Source: Rhodohalobacter sp. 614A (GTDB lineage: Bacteria; Bacteroidota; Rhodothermia; Balneolales; Balneolaceae). Taken from it: a DNA stretch of 64,000 nucleotides. Below, piece after piece: positions 1,645 to 6,237 of the stretch. Positions within the stretch are counted from its first letter, which is position 1; every line of letters starts with the position of its first letter. The stretch spans positions 744,001 through 808,000 of the forward strand of contig NZ_JAKEDS010000002.1 of assembly GCF_021462415.1 (NCBI RefSeq). Reading direction: 5' to 3'. The position numbers were made by a program, and so were the translations under genes. The notes under the pieces are model-generated. The model saw only the letters and a program-made list of their open reading frames with translations. It searched no databases and was not told the DNA's origin.

Positions 1645-1719
1645 TTCTACTATTTTTTTGACAAGGAATTGAAAATAGTTTTCAGTTGTTGATAAAGGGA
1701 ATTGAAAACAGATCCCTCT

Positions 1720-3198
1720 ATGAAGAATATTAACAGTTACCGGGTTTTTAATAACAACGATCATAAACCAAATAAAGATGGCGATTTTGTAGTCTACTGG
1801 ATGCAGAATACCCGACGATTTCATTACAATTTTGGTTTGGAGTACGCGGTTAGCTGGGCAAACAAACTTGGGAAACCACTTCTCATTTACGAGGCTTTTT
1901 CATGCCACTACCGCTGGGCAACTGATCGCTCACATACATTTATGATGCAGGGAATGAAAGAGCATTTGGATTTTGCGGAGAAACAAGATCTCAACTACCT
2001 CACGTTTTGTGAACAAAAGCCCGGCCAAATTGATAGCATGGTGATGGAAATTTTTGACAGGGCTTCAATCATAATTTCTGATGAGTTCCCGATTTTCATC
2101 ATCAAAAAGAGCAATGAGAAATATTCCCGGAAAGTAAATATTCCATATATCACGGTTGACAGTAATGGCATCATCCCGCTGGGTATTACGGACAAAGATC
2201 CGTACAGTGCATACTTGTTTAGAAAAATCATGCAGAAACATTTCGTGGAAGCATATACTCATCCACCAAAGAAAGATCCACTGGATGACCTTGAGCACAC
2301 GGATAAAATCAGAGGGTTGACAGAAATCACAGACAAGTATCCTTCCGGTAAAGAAGCACTTTCAGAGATTGAATCATTTGTTTCTAAGCTGGAGATCAAT
2401 CATTCCGTCAAGCCGATAGATTGGGAGGGAACTCGTAAAGCCGGTCTCGGTATGTTGGGGCAGTTCATCTCTAATGGATTGTTTGATTATGGTGACAAAA
2501 GAAATGATCCGGATGAACAAAAAACGAGTCACTTGAGCCCGTGGCTACATTTTGGAAAAGTATCTGTTTTCGAGATTGTTCGTGCCGTTTTTGATCATCA
2601 ACCGGATGATTGGAGTCTTGATCGAATAACATTTAATGCCGGTTCAAGAGAAGGGTTTTTTAATGGGGATTCAAATATTTCGAAATTTCTGGATGAGTTA
2701 ATTACATGGCGGGAAGTGGGATTTCATTTTGCTCACCACCGTCCGGATTACGATCAGTTTGATAGTTTGCCGGATTGGGCCCGTGATACATTGAATGAGC
2801 ATCGCGGCGATTCCAGGGAGTGGAATTATTCATACAATGAACTGGCGGAAGCGAAGACACATGATGAACTTTGGAATGCTGCTCAAACACAACTTCGAGA
2901 GGAGGGGATCATCCACAATTATTTGCGAATGCTATGGGGGAAAAAAGTTATTGAATGGACACCTGATCCTGAAACTGCTCTTAAGTACCTGATTGATTTG
3001 AATAATACGTATGCTATTGATGGTCGTGATCCGAACAGTTACACCGGAATTTTCTGGTGCTTCGGCCGCTTTGACAGGGCTTGGCAGGAGCGATCCATTT
3101 TTGGAAAAATCCGTTACATGACCAGTGAGAGTACTCGAAAAAAAGTAAAAATAAATCAATATCTGGCTCAGTATAGAAATCAAACCAATCCGCTGTAA
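1720..3198 (+). CDS. Class II-like DNA photolyase (photolyase/cryptochrome family)
   Basis: Flavoprotein of the photolyase/cryptochrome superfamily, probably splitting cyclobutane pyrimidine dimers with light. The N-terminal Rossmann-like half starts with VVYWMQNTRR, typical of class II enzymes. The C-terminal FAD-binding half carries WREVGFHFAHH, THDELWNAAQ, MLWGKKVIEW and DGRDPNSYTG, the class II FAD and electron-transfer region, with Trp residues in the expected dyad segments. Compared with the archaeal class II sequence as I remember it, the stretch before DRAW is about one residue shorter, so a divergent class II subgroup is possible. I chose ATG 1720; a TTG at 1702 would add six residues, and neither start has a well-spaced ribosome binding site. 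The SatD operator array begins right at its stop codon. The family call is secure; substrate specificity is inferred. Confidence 0.88.
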   Translation: MKNINSYRVFNNNDHKPNKDGDFVVYWMQNTRRFHYNFGLEYAVSWANKLGKPLLIYEAFSCHYRWATDRSHTFMMQGMKEHLDFAEKQDLNYLTFCEQKPGQIDSMVMEIFDRASIIISDEFPIFIIKKSNEKYSRKVNIPYITVDSNGIIPLGITDKDPYSAYLFRKIMQKHFVEAYTHPPKKDPLDDLEHTDKIRGLTEITDKYPSGKEALSEIESFVSKLEINHSVKPIDWEGTRKAGLGMLGQFISNGLFDYGDKRNDPDEQKTSHLSPWLHFGKVSVFEIVRAVFDHQPDDWSLDRITFNAGSREGFFNGDSNISKFLDELITWREVGFHFAHHRPDYDQFDSLPDWARDTLNEHRGDSREWNYSYNELAEAKTHDELWNAAQTQLREEGIIHNYLRMLWGKKVIEWTPDPETALKYLIDLNNTYAIDGRDPNSYTGIFWCFGRFDRAWQERSIFGKIRYMTSESTRKKVKINQYLAQYRNQTNPL

Positions 3199-3256
3199 TA
3201 TCGATAAATTAGCCTATAATGTATTATTATCGATAAATTAGCCTATAATGTATTAT
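3199..3256 (+). repeat. Two perfect 29-bp tandem repeats upstream of satD-like gene
   Basis: Copies at 3199-3227 and 3228-3256 are identical. Each begins TATCGATAAATTAG and contains TATAAT, a match to the bacterial -10 consensus. A third, diverged copy begins at 3257 with TATCGGTAAATT. The repeat starts at the photolyase stop codon and fills the gap to the SatD gene. The direct abutment without spacers argues against CRISPR and suits iterated binding sites or a duplicated promoter. Confidence 0.9.
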
Positions 3257-3306
3257 TATCGGTAAATTAAACGATAAATTGAAAATATCGAATAAAATAC
3301 CGATAT
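3257..3306 (+). promoter_or_regulatory. Degenerate operator-like elements before the satD-like gene
   Basis: This continues the 29-bp repeats with CGGTAAATT (3260-3268), CGATAAATT (3272-3280) and an inverted pair ATATCG (3285-3290) / CGATAT (3301-3306) separated by 10 bases. Counting the upstream copies, the C-G-(A/G)-TAAATT core occurs four times in 80 bases. The last half-site ends six bases before the ATG, so a protein bound here would probably block initiation. The sites are seen; their function as an autoregulatory operator for the downstream HTH protein is inferred. Confidence 0.5.
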
Positions 3307-3312
3307 TGAAGT

Positions 3313-3936
3313 ATGAAAAGTACAATAACCGGAGATATCGTATATTCACAGTCAGTTGAAAAGCCAGACATTTGGTTAAATCCATTAAAAAAATTGTTCT
3401 TAAAGTTTGGTGATTCCCCCGCAGATTGGGAGATCTACAGAGGCGATAGCTTTCAATTAACGGTAGCTACCAAAGATGCGGTAAGAGTTGCAATTCTCAT
3501 TAAATCTGTCATCAAAAAACAAAAGTCTAAAAAACTTGATGTAAGGCTGGCAATTGGCGTTGGAAAGGAAGATGTGTATGCCAATCGAGTTAGTGAAGCC
3601 TATAGCGAAGCGTTTGTTTACTCCGGCCAGTTATTAGATGCATTAAAAGAGAAAAAAATCCATCTTGGAATAAAATCACCTTGGAATGATTTTGACAAAG
3701 AATTCAATATGATGTTTAAACTGGCATTAGTTATAATGAATTCGTGGACAAGCAATTCTGCCGAAGTTGCTGAACTTCTGTTTAGCATTTCAGGAATTAC
3801 CCAAGTAGAAATTGCTGAGAAGCTTGGAATAGCACAATCCTCTGTGAACGACAGGATTAAAAGAGGAGCGATTTATGAAATCATGGAAATGGAGCAGTAT
3901 TTCCGAGAAAGAATTGAAAACAAACCGTACTACTAA
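3313..3936 (+). CDS. SatD-family protein with C-terminal helix-turn-helix
   Basis: The 207-residue protein resembles the SatD family, whose biochemical role is not established. The N-terminal part has TGDIVYSQS (Asp8) and YRGDSFQL (Asp45), then VRLAIGVGKED near residues 77-87 and a SEAYSEAF segment near 94-101. This order recalls the metal-binding aspartates and core strands of class III nucleotide cyclases, which is my inference. Residues 163-188 (TQVEIAEKLGIAQSSVNDRIKRG) form a convincing helix-turn-helix. It starts at ATG 3313, just after the repeated TATCGATAAATT-like elements, and is followed 9 bases later by the DUF3307 gene, so the two are probably co-transcribed. Autoregulation through the upstream array is likely but unproven. 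Confidence 0.75.
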   Translation: MKSTITGDIVYSQSVEKPDIWLNPLKKLFLKFGDSPADWEIYRGDSFQLTVATKDAVRVAILIKSVIKKQKSKKLDVRLAIGVGKEDVYANRVSEAYSEAFVYSGQLLDALKEKKIHLGIKSPWNDFDKEFNMMFKLALVIMNSWTSNSAEVAELLFSISGITQVEIAEKLGIAQSSVNDRIKRGAIYEIMEMEQYFRERIENKPYY

Positions 3937-3945
3937 ATTCAGGAT

Positions 3946-4647
3946 ATGATTCTAGTAAAATTGATCCTCGCACATATTATTGGCGATTTTTTCTTGCAAA
4001 GAGCTAAATGGATTGAAAGTAAGGAGAGAAAAAAATGGTTTTCGCCACATTTGTTCCTACATGTGTTCATCCATTTTATATTGGTGATGTTGATTTTATG
4101 GGATTTTAGCGGATTGCCGGCTGCACTTATCATTATGATTACTCATTATTTTATTGATGGATTTAAACTTAGTTTTCAGAATGAAAAAACGAAAGGTTTC
4201 TGGTTTGGGGCTGACCAGGTTGCTCACCTTCTTGTACTCGTTTTAGCCTGGAATTTCTTCTGGGGCGGGACAATGATCGGCGGACTAAGCGACCAATTTT
4301 GGATTGTGTTAACAGGATTGCTTTTTCTTACATATCCAGCTTCGTATATCATGCAGTATATTATGGATCCGTGGAACGAACAAATTGAACTGGATCAGAA
4401 AGAGTCTCTCCGCGGAGCGGGTAAATATATCGGAATGCTGGAAAGGGTTTTTGTCTATCTTGCCTTTATGACTGGAAATGCACAGGTGATTGGTTTTTTA
4501 TTGGCGGCTAAATCTGTTTTTCGGTTTGGAGATTTAACAAAGTCTAAAGACCGAAAATTAACTGAATATATTCTGATAGGAACTCTCTTCAGTTTTTTAA
4601 TGGCAATTATTGCCGGGCTTTTGAGTACAAGATTTTATATGCTTTAG
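3946..4647 (+). CDS. DUF3307 integral membrane protein
   Basis: A 233-residue polytopic membrane protein of the DUF3307 family, function unknown. It opens with LILAHIIGDFFLQ, the family's typical first transmembrane segment with an embedded GD, followed by HLFLHVFIHFILV, THYFIDGFK and further hydrophobic segments; about six membrane helices are visible in all. Conserved His and Asp residues inside the membrane segments (HIIGD, THYFIDG, DQVAHLL) could bind a ligand or metal. It begins 9 bases after the SatD-like gene with AGGA close to the ATG, so the pair forms one transcription unit. I infer that it is the membrane partner of the SatD-like protein. The next gene is convergent. Confidence 0.8.
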   Translation: MILVKLILAHIIGDFFLQRAKWIESKERKKWFSPHLFLHVFIHFILVMLILWDFSGLPAALIIMITHYFIDGFKLSFQNEKTKGFWFGADQVAHLLVLVLAWNFFWGGTMIGGLSDQFWIVLTGLLFLTYPASYIMQYIMDPWNEQIELDQKESLRGAGKYIGMLERVFVYLAFMTGNAQVIGFLLAAKSVFRFGDLTKSKDRKLTEYILIGTLFSFLMAIIAGLLSTRFYML

Positions 4648-4651
4648 AAAT

Positions 4652-5443
4652 TTAAAGCTGATCAATCAATTCAGTAACAAGCTTCGCAAAATCTTCCTTT
4701 CGGCTTTCGGCTGCTTCTTTCACTTCAGAATGATCTAATTTCCCTGATGAAAGACCGGCCGCCATATTCGTAACCAAGGATATCGCTGCTGCGGGTATTT
4801 TAAGTCTTGAAGCTTCCATTAACTCGGGTGCTGTACTCATGCCAACCACATCAACCCCAAGCCGCTGAAAAGCAGTAATTTCGGCTTTGGTTTCATAATT
4901 CGGACCTTTTACATAGAGGTATGTGCCTCGTTGGATATCTAACCCGATAGAGGATGCGATTCCTCTAACCCTTTCTGAAACAGGGTAAAGGTTATACCGA
5001 AACGTATTGGAAGGTTTGATAGATATTTTTTGAAAAAGTCGAAAAATATCATCGATGACCATTAAATCTCCCACTTTAAACTGAGAATTTACTGCTCCGG
5101 CAGCGTTTGAAATTATGACTTTATTTGCATCGAATTCTTTTGCGATGTGGATGGGAAGGACGGTAGTAGAAAAGGGAAATCCTTCGTAATGATGAAACCG
5201 GCCCGAAAAGATCAGAACAGATTTATTTCTAACTTTACCGGAGATCAACATTCCGTCATGGCCGTGGACAGAAGTAACCGGGAAATGAGGTATTGTGTGA
5301 TAAGGAACTTTTACGGGATGATCTATTGAATCTGTAAATCCACTTAAGCCCGAACCAAGAATTACCGCTGCCTCAAACGATTCAGGAAAGCCTTGTTTTA
5401 CCAGAAATTTTTTCGCTTCGAACGTTGGCTCAGAAAATTTCAT
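4652..5443 (-). CDS. Purine nucleoside phosphorylase
   Basis: Phosphorolysis of purine nucleosides (inosine/guanosine type) to base and ribose-1-phosphate in the cytosolic salvage pathway. The 263-residue length and motifs fit the trimeric PNP family: ILGSGLSG phosphate loop near residue 28, GRFHHYEG near 80, ISNAAGAVN near 110, GPNYETKAE (base-binding Glu) near 180, VVGMSTAPE near 198 and VTNMAAG near 222. Its ATG overlaps the stop of the upstream MBL-fold gene by 4 bases, so the two are translationally coupled. It is the last gene of the long minus-strand run and converges with the DUF3307 gene. The family is secure; the exact substrate preference is not visible. Confidence 0.93.
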   Translation of the reverse strand: MKFSEPTFEAKKFLVKQGFPESFEAAVILGSGLSGFTDSIDHPVKVPYHTIPHFPVTSVHGHDGMLISGKVRNKSVLIFSGRFHHYEGFPFSTTVLPIHIAKEFDANKVIISNAAGAVNSQFKVGDLMVIDDIFRLFQKISIKPSNTFRYNLYPVSERVRGIASSIGLDIQRGTYLYVKGPNYETKAEITAFQRLGVDVVGMSTAPELMEASRLKIPAAAISLVTNMAAGLSSGKLDHSEVKEAAESRKEDFAKLVTELIDQL

Positions 5444-6237
5444 CCTGAAATATTTTCGATGGAGTATCCTTTCTTTTGATCATGTGAAACCAGTTTAAAC
5501 AATGGAGAAACCGTTTCGTGATAAGCCATAATAGTATATTTTTGCTCAAAAGCCAGTTTCTGAAGTTCTTCTCTTTTCTTCAGACTTTTTTCTGGTTCTT
5601 CATCATATTTGGCTTTATACGTTCTATTGATTGCTCCTCGTGTTCCAATTACATCCCCGGCCATCAAATAACGGTCATCTCCATTTTCATAAAATAATAC
5701 CTGATGGAATTTTGTGTGGCCACCAATTCGCTCAACTCTTACATGTGGAATTGGATTGTCTTCTTCTGCCAGAAAGTTTAAATCAGCCTTATTGTCAACA
5801 AAGTGAAAAAATTCGATTTCATCTTCATTATGCTCATCAATGGTTTCCTGTAAACGTTTCCATCCGTCTTTTGAAACCCAAATGGATGCATCCGGAAACG
5901 TTAATTCCCAAAAACCGTGTTTTCTGTTCGCCAGTCCACCCATGTGATCAAAATGAAGATGACTGATGAAAATATCTGTAATATCATATTCATTCAGAGA
6001 ATGTTCAGCGAGATTATTGTGCATGGTATCAATGGACGAATCCTCTCCAAACAAGTCACCTATTCCGGCATCAAAGAGAATGTTATGATTTTCCTTTTGA
6101 ATCAGAAAAGGATTGATTGAAAGTTTAAGAGCGCCTTTATTTGGAGGATCACTTTTCGTAATTCTTTCAAATTCTTCATCTCTCCCTACTGAAAACGTTC
6201 CCTCATACAGAGAGCTTACAAGTGTTTTGTTATTCAT
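5440..6237 (-). CDS. MBL-fold metallohydrolase
   Basis: Metallo-beta-lactamase-fold hydrolase of 265 residues. The metal-binding signature HLHFDH is at residues 93-98, a downstream His (GGHTKFH) near 190, the Asp of MAGDVIG near 210 and a late His (MAYHETV) near 240 complete a two-metal site. Family members hydrolyse esters, thioesters, lactones or phosphodiesters; nothing here fixes the substrate. No signal peptide is visible, so it is probably cytoplasmic. It overlaps the PNP gene by 4 bases and follows phoH by 36 bases. Confidence 0.9.
   Translation of the reverse strand: MNNKTLVSSLYEGTFSVGRDEEFERITKSDPPNKGALKLSINPFLIQKENHNILFDAGIGDLFGEDSSIDTMHNNLAEHSLNEYDITDIFISHLHFDHMGGLANRKHGFWELTFPDASIWVSKDGWKRLQETIDEHNEDEIEFFHFVDNKADLNFLAEEDNPIPHVRVERIGGHTKFHQVLFYENGDDRYLMAGDVIGTRGAINRTYKAKYDEEPEKSLKKREELQKLAFEQKYTIMAYHETVSPLFKLVSHDQKKGYSIENISG

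Follow-up and report, generated by a model that had tools for sequence, protein, structure and literature searches.

A palindrome array of conserved pitch in front of satD–DUF3307, probably the operator of a self-regulating gene pair

The locus

Our subject is a short gap between two genes of the bacterium Rhodohalobacter sp. 614A, and the gene pair that follows it. The gap lies in a stretch of 64,000 nucleotides that we call the window (contig NZ_JAKEDS010000002.1 of assembly GCF_021462415.1, positions 744,001 to 808,000); before it stands the stop codon of a photolyase-like gene, at 3198, and after it a satD-like gene whose ATG is at 3313. The gap is made up of four copies of a 20-base-pair (20-bp) interrupted palindrome with the consensus TATCG-N10-CGATA (Table 1). 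The copies begin 29, 29 and 29 bp apart, leaving linkers of 9 bp, and the array as a whole runs from 3199 to 3305, with the satD-like ATG 7 bp past its end. Copies 1 and 2 have CTATA on the right, a single change that turns CGATAA into CTATAA, and agree with each other in all 29 bp of the unit. Behind satD, 9 bp past its stop, begins a gene for a membrane-type protein of the DUF3307 family. We shall argue that the array is probably the operator of this gene pair.

Table 1. Features of the array, of the satD–DUF3307 pair and of the gene before it; positions are those of the window.
Feature	Position	Strand	Basis and remarks
Operator copy 1, TATCGATAAATTAGCCTATA	3199..3218	+	Right half-site differs by one base
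Operator copy 2	3228..3247	+	Same as copy 1 including the 9-bp linker; exact duplication of the unit
Operator copy 3, TATCGGTAAATTAAACGATA	3257..3276	+	5-bp half-sites perfect
Operator copy 4, TATCGAATAAAATACCGATA	3286..3305	+	5-bp half-sites perfect; 7 bp to ATG
satD-like gene, 207 residues	3313..3936	+	Open reading frame; Pfam SatD E 1.2e-6, 28.8 bits (cut-off 29)
Palm domain (cyclase/GGDEF/Cas10-like) at the SatD N-terminus, about residues 1-124, including D8 and D45	3313..3684	+	Predicted: AlphaFold2 model, structure matches, conservation
SatD C-terminal helix-turn-helix region, residues 147-202	3751..3918	+	HTH_24 26.1 bits (cut-off 21.9) at residues 161-184; helices in model
Putative recognition helix, residues 175-184 (Q175, S176, S177, D180)	3835..3864	+	Helix in model; covaries with half-site
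DUF3307 membrane-type protein, 233 residues	3946..4647	+	Pfam PF11750, 97 bits (above cut-off of 23); model; alignment
Photolyase-like gene, outside the cassette	1702..3198	+	TIGR00591 E 7.5e-116, 388 bits (below cut-off of 550); stop abuts copy 1

A first-pass annotation of this DNA, made from the letters alone, had noticed parts of the array. Its two exact 29-bp repeats are there, at 3199-3227 and 3228-3256, and so is the diverged third, which begins at 3257; the iteration at 29 bp was right, the unit proper being the 20-bp palindrome. What it listed as an additional CGATAAATT core is present at 3272-3280 and is really the right half of copy 3 with its linker. The separate 6-bp inverted pair that it saw has genuine arms (3286-3305), and these form a full fourth copy, which had been overlooked.

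Arrays were scored with a free scan, which takes any 5-bp word with a spacer of 4-12, leaves the pitch unconstrained and is applied to the 150 bp upstream of the ATG. The array in the window scores 13.0, a value reached by none of 3000 dinucleotide shuffles (maximum 12.5). On a fixed 75-bp grid laid over all 64 kb, the top two of 852 segments (10.5 and 9.0) overlap the array, and the next scores 7.0. The 12-mer alone, at two mismatches, is unexceptional (17 in the window against 13.9 expected), so it is the iteration that matters. Across the whole genome from which the window comes (G000), single TATCG-N10-CGATA sites with at most one mismatch number 183, compared with 85 for the reversed pattern, an excess that may come from base composition; we counted doublets only, and did not use single sites as a regulon.

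Conservation of the array

The architecture of the array is kept before satD in the Bacteroidota that we sampled and on gammaproteobacterial plasmids. Our loci came from genomes of the same genus (19 of 28 with a SatD match), from a sample of the phylum (75 of 296; 30 loci kept, 3 already in the set) and from the best 80 of 594 confirmed matches in titled genome records, making 127 loci in total and, with 7 duplicates dropped, 120 distinct proteins. In the free scan, 115 of the 120 distinct loci show a palindrome spacing of 28 or 29 bp; the same spacings turn up in 83 of 1200 shuffles and in 22 of 1200 other stretches of the same loci. A score of at least 10.5 is reached by 75 of the 120 loci, by one of 1200 shuffles and by one of 1200 other stretches, and with the limit at 9.5 the count is 76 loci against 15 of 1200 shuffles. 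Adjacent spacings at satD are 28 bp in 203 of 275 cases and 29 bp in 45; the corresponding figures for other stretches are 11 and 6 of 735. The 29-bp pitch belongs to the window's genus, the 28-bp pitch to most other loci.

The letters of the half-sites were read from 110 loci by a restricted scan, in which half-site positions 1-3 are fixed as T, A or G, T and positions 4-6 are free. The commonest are TATCGT (30) and TATCGG (24), followed by TATTCC, TATTAC and TATTAG (8 each), TATCTG and TATAAG (6 each), TATCGA (5); nine others are rarer. Pitch and palindrome geometry are conserved, while the half-site letters drift by lineage; the sequence TATCGATA, which the first-pass annotation had expected to recur upstream of homologous pairs, is not kept. 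Arrays hold two copies in 17 loci, three in 64, four in 24 and five in 5. Four loci (L062, L067, L079 and L119) have two doublets with a different gap between them, which would fit a minimal unit of two sites. In 53 of the 110 loci, 7-9 bp separate the end of the last copy from the ATG. TAnnTTTG, the -7 element of Bacteroidota promoters, is found in 46 of the 110 upstream regions, as against 237 of 2200 mononucleotide shuffles, and in 30 of these 46 it lies within or beside an operator.

Ten loci are on plasmids (7 from 32 plasmid records and 3 others), nine of them gammaproteobacterial. SatD-like genes occur there in Segatella, Vibrio, Salinivibrio, Pseudoalteromonas, Pseudomonas, Enterobacter, Klebsiella and Escherichia coli, with DUF3307 annotated beside satD in 8 of the 10; the two Pseudoalteromonas stretches are without annotated features. 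Arrays precede satD in 8 of the 10, 5 of them seen by the free scan and 3 by a directed pattern. By the free scan the pitch is 28 bp in Segatella, in both Pseudoalteromonas and in Vibrio, where TTAGCC..GGCTAA stands three times, and 29 bp in Enterobacter; each of these scores is reached by 0 or 1 of 500 shuffles. The directed pattern, AACC-N5-GGTT with one mismatch, finds a 29-bp pair on four plasmids, those of Enterobacter, P. fragi, E. coli and Klebsiella, and for each of them in none of 2000 shuffles. The same motif recurs in a distant Balneolota subfamily of SatD (23-28% identity). Of its 5 loci, 4 have three copies with a pitch of exactly 29 bp (again 0 of 2000 shuffles each), and the fifth has one copy. 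The partner in 4 of these 5 loci (L017-L020) is a different small membrane-like protein of about 250 residues, not DUF3307.

The E. coli plasmid (L156) is 3,770 bases long and has five annotated genes, of which satD and DUF3307 are two; Klebsiella plasmids of equal length carry an identical SatD-like protein. A nucleotide search with the cassette of the E. coli plasmid matched 809 of 5426 E. coli genomes, none over more than 80% of the query, and in the 30 best places listed the match covers only the first 240 bases, at the mobilisation-gene end of the query.

Genome-wide, doublets of the window's type go together with satD, and all but four of them lie at satD itself. A 29-bp TATCG doublet (two mismatches allowed) is present in 14 of the 28 genomes of the genus, exactly those whose best SatD is at least 58% identical, and the reversed-pattern control is present in none of the 28. 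In the phylum sample, 9 of the 296 genomes have a 28-bp doublet (one mismatch); each of these belongs to the 75 that have a SatD match, and the reversed control is present in 0 of 296.

Which protein reads the array

Our candidate is SatD. The first-pass annotation had credited it with a helix-turn-helix of its own, and the match to HTH_24 clears its cut-off. If SatD binds, the letters of the half-site ought to change with the residues that read them. We looked for this in 110 loci (10 of the 120 fell below the score limit and were dropped) and in 63 representatives of less than 70% identity. Residue 180, in the putative recognition helix, goes with half-site positions 4-5: D with CG in 16 of 16 loci, E with CG in 27 of 34, G with CG in 17 of 21, K with TC in 8 of 9, R with TA in 10 of 10, and Q with TA or AA in 15 of 15, five loci having other residues. 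Two loci with R for Q at 175 have the half-site TGTTAC, compared with TATTAC in the nearest type, that is, G for A at position 2. Among the 63 representatives, the strongest columns are, in order of rank, D180 and S177 for position 4; D180, E189 and S177 for position 5; and S176, D180 and S177 for position 6. Helix distance also follows half-site distance when N-domain distance is removed (partial Mantel r 0.385, 62 representatives, 0 of 2000 permutations). Covariation of the half-site with residues 176, 177 and 180 points to SatD as the binder. We conclude that SatD itself very probably binds the array, on evidence that is good and not final.

SatD and its partner

The protein in the window misses the gathering cut-off of Pfam SatD (PF16264; residues 5-187) by 0.2 bits, hence our term SatD-like. 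Of the 35 members of our SatD alignment, 30 match PF16264 at E ≤1, the window protein among them, the best at 5.2e-32; the 14 control genomes have no Pfam SatD match. The AlphaFold2 model has a mean predicted local distance difference test (pLDDT) score of 95.5. Its N-terminal domain aligns with GTP cyclohydrolase III (Z 9.7, root-mean-square deviation 2.9, 109 residues aligned), the class III cyclase Rv1625c (9.4), Cas10/Cmr2 (9.3) and GGDEF (8.9), and the 50 structural matches listed (Z 9.7-8.1) belong nearly all to the nucleotidyl-cyclase/GGDEF/Cas10 superfamily. We therefore predict, with high confidence, a palm-like (ferredoxin-like) fold of that superfamily, a shared fold that by itself shows no function. 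At the sequence level, the cyclase, GGDEF and Cas10 families give no match to SatD above cut-off. The near-invariant motifs of SatD are GDI..S and RGD(S/E)FQ: D8 is present in 128 of 129 sequences, and S12, G44, D45, F47, Q48 and R78 in 129 of 129 each. The acidic pair D8/D45 may be likened to the metal sites of cyclases.

The partner usually lies very close. In the commonest arrangement, at 65 of the 127 loci, it starts 4 bases inside the satD stop. Outside the distant subfamily, a DUF3307-like frame follows satD at 96 of 122 loci (7 duplicates included) by a motif filter and at 24 more by eye, which leaves L063 and L113. The model of DUF3307 has a pLDDT of 90.9, and comparison of its fold gave no convincing match. 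Nine residues (H10, D14, Q18, H39, H43, H67, D71, Q91 and H94) are invariant in 45 sequences, and all except Q18 lie inside predicted helices; invariant His, Asp and Gln in such positions suggest a metal site within the membrane.

We also looked for the pair among phages and phage defences. A pattern search of IMG/VR with SatD gave 84 matches, none of them confirmed, and phage records gave a single weak and partial match (E 0.05). DUF3307 has no match in phage records at E 0.01; PHROG 2470 does match its N-terminal part (2.2e-14). Among PADLOC models, mad1 alone matches, with 12.5 bits (E 0.032) to the SatD helix-turn-helix, and DUF3307 matches no model, so the pair corresponds to no known anti-phage system there.

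A model, and its rivals

The account we prefer, and think likely, is that SatD dimers stacked on the array autoregulate satD–DUF3307. SatD would be a one-component regulator, a dimer of which reads one 20-bp palindrome through the C-terminal helix-turn-helix. Because the pitch is fixed and the linkers vary, contact between adjacent dimers is its best explanation: neighbours would touch along the DNA and so set the pitch of 28/29 bp at which the two to five operators stand. With just 7 bp between the array and the satD start in the window, a satD promoter has room only within the array or upstream of it, and the loaded array would most likely repress the operon. The nearness of the last copy to the ATG, and TAnnTTTG within or beside operators, suit autorepression. 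The palm-like domain with its acidic pair would be a probable sensor or enzyme. A nucleotide or metal bound there might alter the contact between dimers, release the array and allow the membrane protein DUF3307 to be made; that the signal is a nucleotide we infer from the predicted fold, just as we infer direct binding, dimer contact, repression and the role of DUF3307 from the computed results. Cooperative autoregulation was also the proposal of the first-pass annotation, which took a lack of conservation before homologous pairs as its refutation; the arrays kept at the loci compared here let that reading stand, and the covariation supports SatD itself as the binder.

A bolder version would make the pair a mobile, self-contained switch for stress or defence. 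Here the palm domain of SatD would sense a change in nucleotides, the dimers stacked on the array would come off it all-or-none, and the operon so released would make an otherwise harmful membrane protein with an intramembrane metal site. We regard this as tentative and rather doubtful.

Several results weigh against our preferred account. The 120 loci are related by descent, and counts over them are not independent events. Five of the 120 lack a 28/29-bp spacing in the free scan (L019, L020, L095, L117 and L125); at L019 and L020 the satD start was wrong, and at L125 the restricted scan did recover an array. That scan itself failed at ten loci (L016-L020, L032, L077, L091, L095 and L117). The two Salinivibrio plasmid loci show no array by free scan or directed pattern, and those of P. 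fragi, E. coli and Klebsiella are seen by the directed pattern only, the free scan being no better than chance. Promoter geometry is not constant, the last copy ending anywhere between 2 and 97 bp from the ATG, and no satD promoter was located in the window when 3100-4800 was searched with a sigma70-type scan. As for covariation, E189, which ranks second for position 5, is outside the recognition helix; several N-domain columns reach z 5-7 in the 63 representatives; and among 14 representatives of less than 50% identity covariation is weak, with other columns ranking just as high. A tree-based independent-pairs test yields 3 supported pairs, with position 4 as expected in 2.5 of the 3 on average and the opposite in 0.0, and three pairs are too few for significance. 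As for the fold, Foldseek alone finds nothing at E ≤0.001 (best 1.1e-3), a profile search of solved structures finds nothing at E 0.001 (best 0.0071, helix-turn-helix proteins; class III cyclase 0.24), and hhalign sees no similarity between the SatD alignment and a single GGDEF protein. Finally, four doublets lie away from satD, one each in G000, G026, G027 and G107.

Those four doublets would fit a reading in which a different regulator of the cell binds the array and SatD just lies next to it. Such a regulator would have to account for half-sites that change together with SatD recognition-helix residues across lineages, for TATCG doublets confined to satD-holding genomes (all 14 that occur in the genus and all 9 from the phylum sample), and for an array kept in differing neighbourhoods (10 loci) and on plasmids; we find it quite improbable. 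Still less probable, to our minds, is that the repeats work in the transcript, as a row of hairpins forming an attenuator or a protein-binding leader. Each palindrome could indeed fold into a short hairpin, and the array is near the start codon. Copies within a locus nevertheless share half-site letters beyond what mere complementarity asks, the 28/29-bp pitch is fixed though loop and linker letters vary, and the covariation partner is a DNA-binding helix. As to neutral tandem duplication, or the tandem promoters suggested by the TATAAT that the first-pass annotation saw in each 29-bp unit, we give them hardly any credence. Copies 1 and 2 are exact duplicates, a pair without parallel in the same-genus relatives compared, and the letters TATAAT are there; they are the right half-site with one changed base, and in place of the CTATA of copies 1 and 2, relatives in the genus carry CGATA. 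The sigma70-type scan found 5 promoter-like sites against 6.0 ± 2.5 in shuffles, no excess, and the same pitch recurs across lineages with different half-sites, spacers and linkers.

SatD could also bind the array as an activator of satD–DUF3307, or act both ways. In some lineages (for instance L042, L071 and L083) the array is wholly upstream of the only TAnnTTTG seen, which speaks for activation. The usual position of the last copy, 7-9 bp from the ATG, suits repression instead. In Streptococcus pyogenes an accessory satD is essential by transposon sequencing (PMC11323703), and by analogy this would suit a repressor of a harmful partner rather than an activator. Activation we judge unlikely, and stacked dimers acting as a repressor remain our preferred account.

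Comparison with known systems

ArgR binds adjacent ARG-box palindromes, in box pairs rather than longer arrays; it differs from SatD in fold, in ligand and in having a wide regulon. It is a hexameric repressor (PMC7248756). The nearest working analogy, not a relative, is NrdR, described in PMC12051234 as an oligomer under nucleotide control that occupies two phased boxes in front of its target genes. Nucleotide control (which for SatD we suppose from the fold) and phased upstream sites are the shared features. NrdR, however, combines a Zn-ribbon with an ATP-cone and acts through its box pair on ribonucleotide reductase genes, whereas SatD would combine a palm-like domain with a helix-turn-helix, has arrays of two to five sites and, to judge by the doublets, would act mainly on its own operon. 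Whole turns give the best binding by NrdR, and the 28/29-bp centre pitch of SatD is not a whole number of 10.5-bp turns. Neither Zn-ribbon nor ATP-cone is among the Pfam matches of the window's SatD at E ≤1, which places it outside the NrdR family.

The Streptococcus SatD, of the secretion and acid tolerance locus, has the same family name as our protein, and the part of PMC11323703 available to us describes no operator array or mechanism for it. Class III cyclases, GGDEF proteins, the Cas10 palm and GTP cyclohydrolase III resemble the predicted N-domain in fold (Z 8.1-9.7) and perhaps in its conserved acidic pair (GDI and RGD(S/E)F); unlike them, SatD has its palm domain fused to a DNA-binding helix-turn-helix. 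In the open-licence literature we found no description of a SatD operator array, of its pitch or of a mechanism for satD–DUF3307 pairs, in keeping with the first-pass annotation, and DUF3307 appears in it as one entry in a jumbo-phage table.

Iterated operators are known. What is unusual here is a pitch kept across phyla, a readable recognition code and a predicted palm–helix-turn-helix regulator. A family of unknown function gains a concrete target and a natural recognition code, with dozens of evolved operator/helix pairs. A pitch held across phyla while the sequence drifts is strong evidence for a conserved protein–protein contact on DNA; on the bolder version above, the pitch would be a structural fingerprint of the SatD–SatD contact, retained as the recognition code drifts. 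SatD is also tied to nucleotide-handling palm folds, the array offers a simple way into a nucleotide-sensor-like switch, and the purpose of such a pair as cargo of very small plasmids is worth asking about.

Neighbouring genes and doublets elsewhere

Neighbours, named by eye, differ at 10 chosen loci, so the satD–DUF3307 cassette looks self-contained. At L093 the pair lies between purL-like and purC-like genes (by eye), and the next gene in the window is a purine nucleoside phosphorylase; this purine link may be chance. Further along the window, 5440-6237 encodes a metallo-beta-lactamase-fold protein like YtnP-type lactonases (102 bits against an NCBIfam cut-off of 425).

Three of the doublets away from satD (G000:C2:627483-627531, which is L150:4984-5032; L151:4988-5036; and L152:5054-5102) are in the genomes with the most similar SatD. 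They lie 67-350 bp from the 3' end of a similar lipoprotein-like gene, with an extracytoplasmic function (ECF) sigma-like gene within a few kb and no gene obviously driven by them. The fourth, in G107 (L168:1501-1548), has a 28-bp pitch and stands just upstream of a 50-codon lipoprotein-like frame (by eye), which is possibly a second target of SatD.
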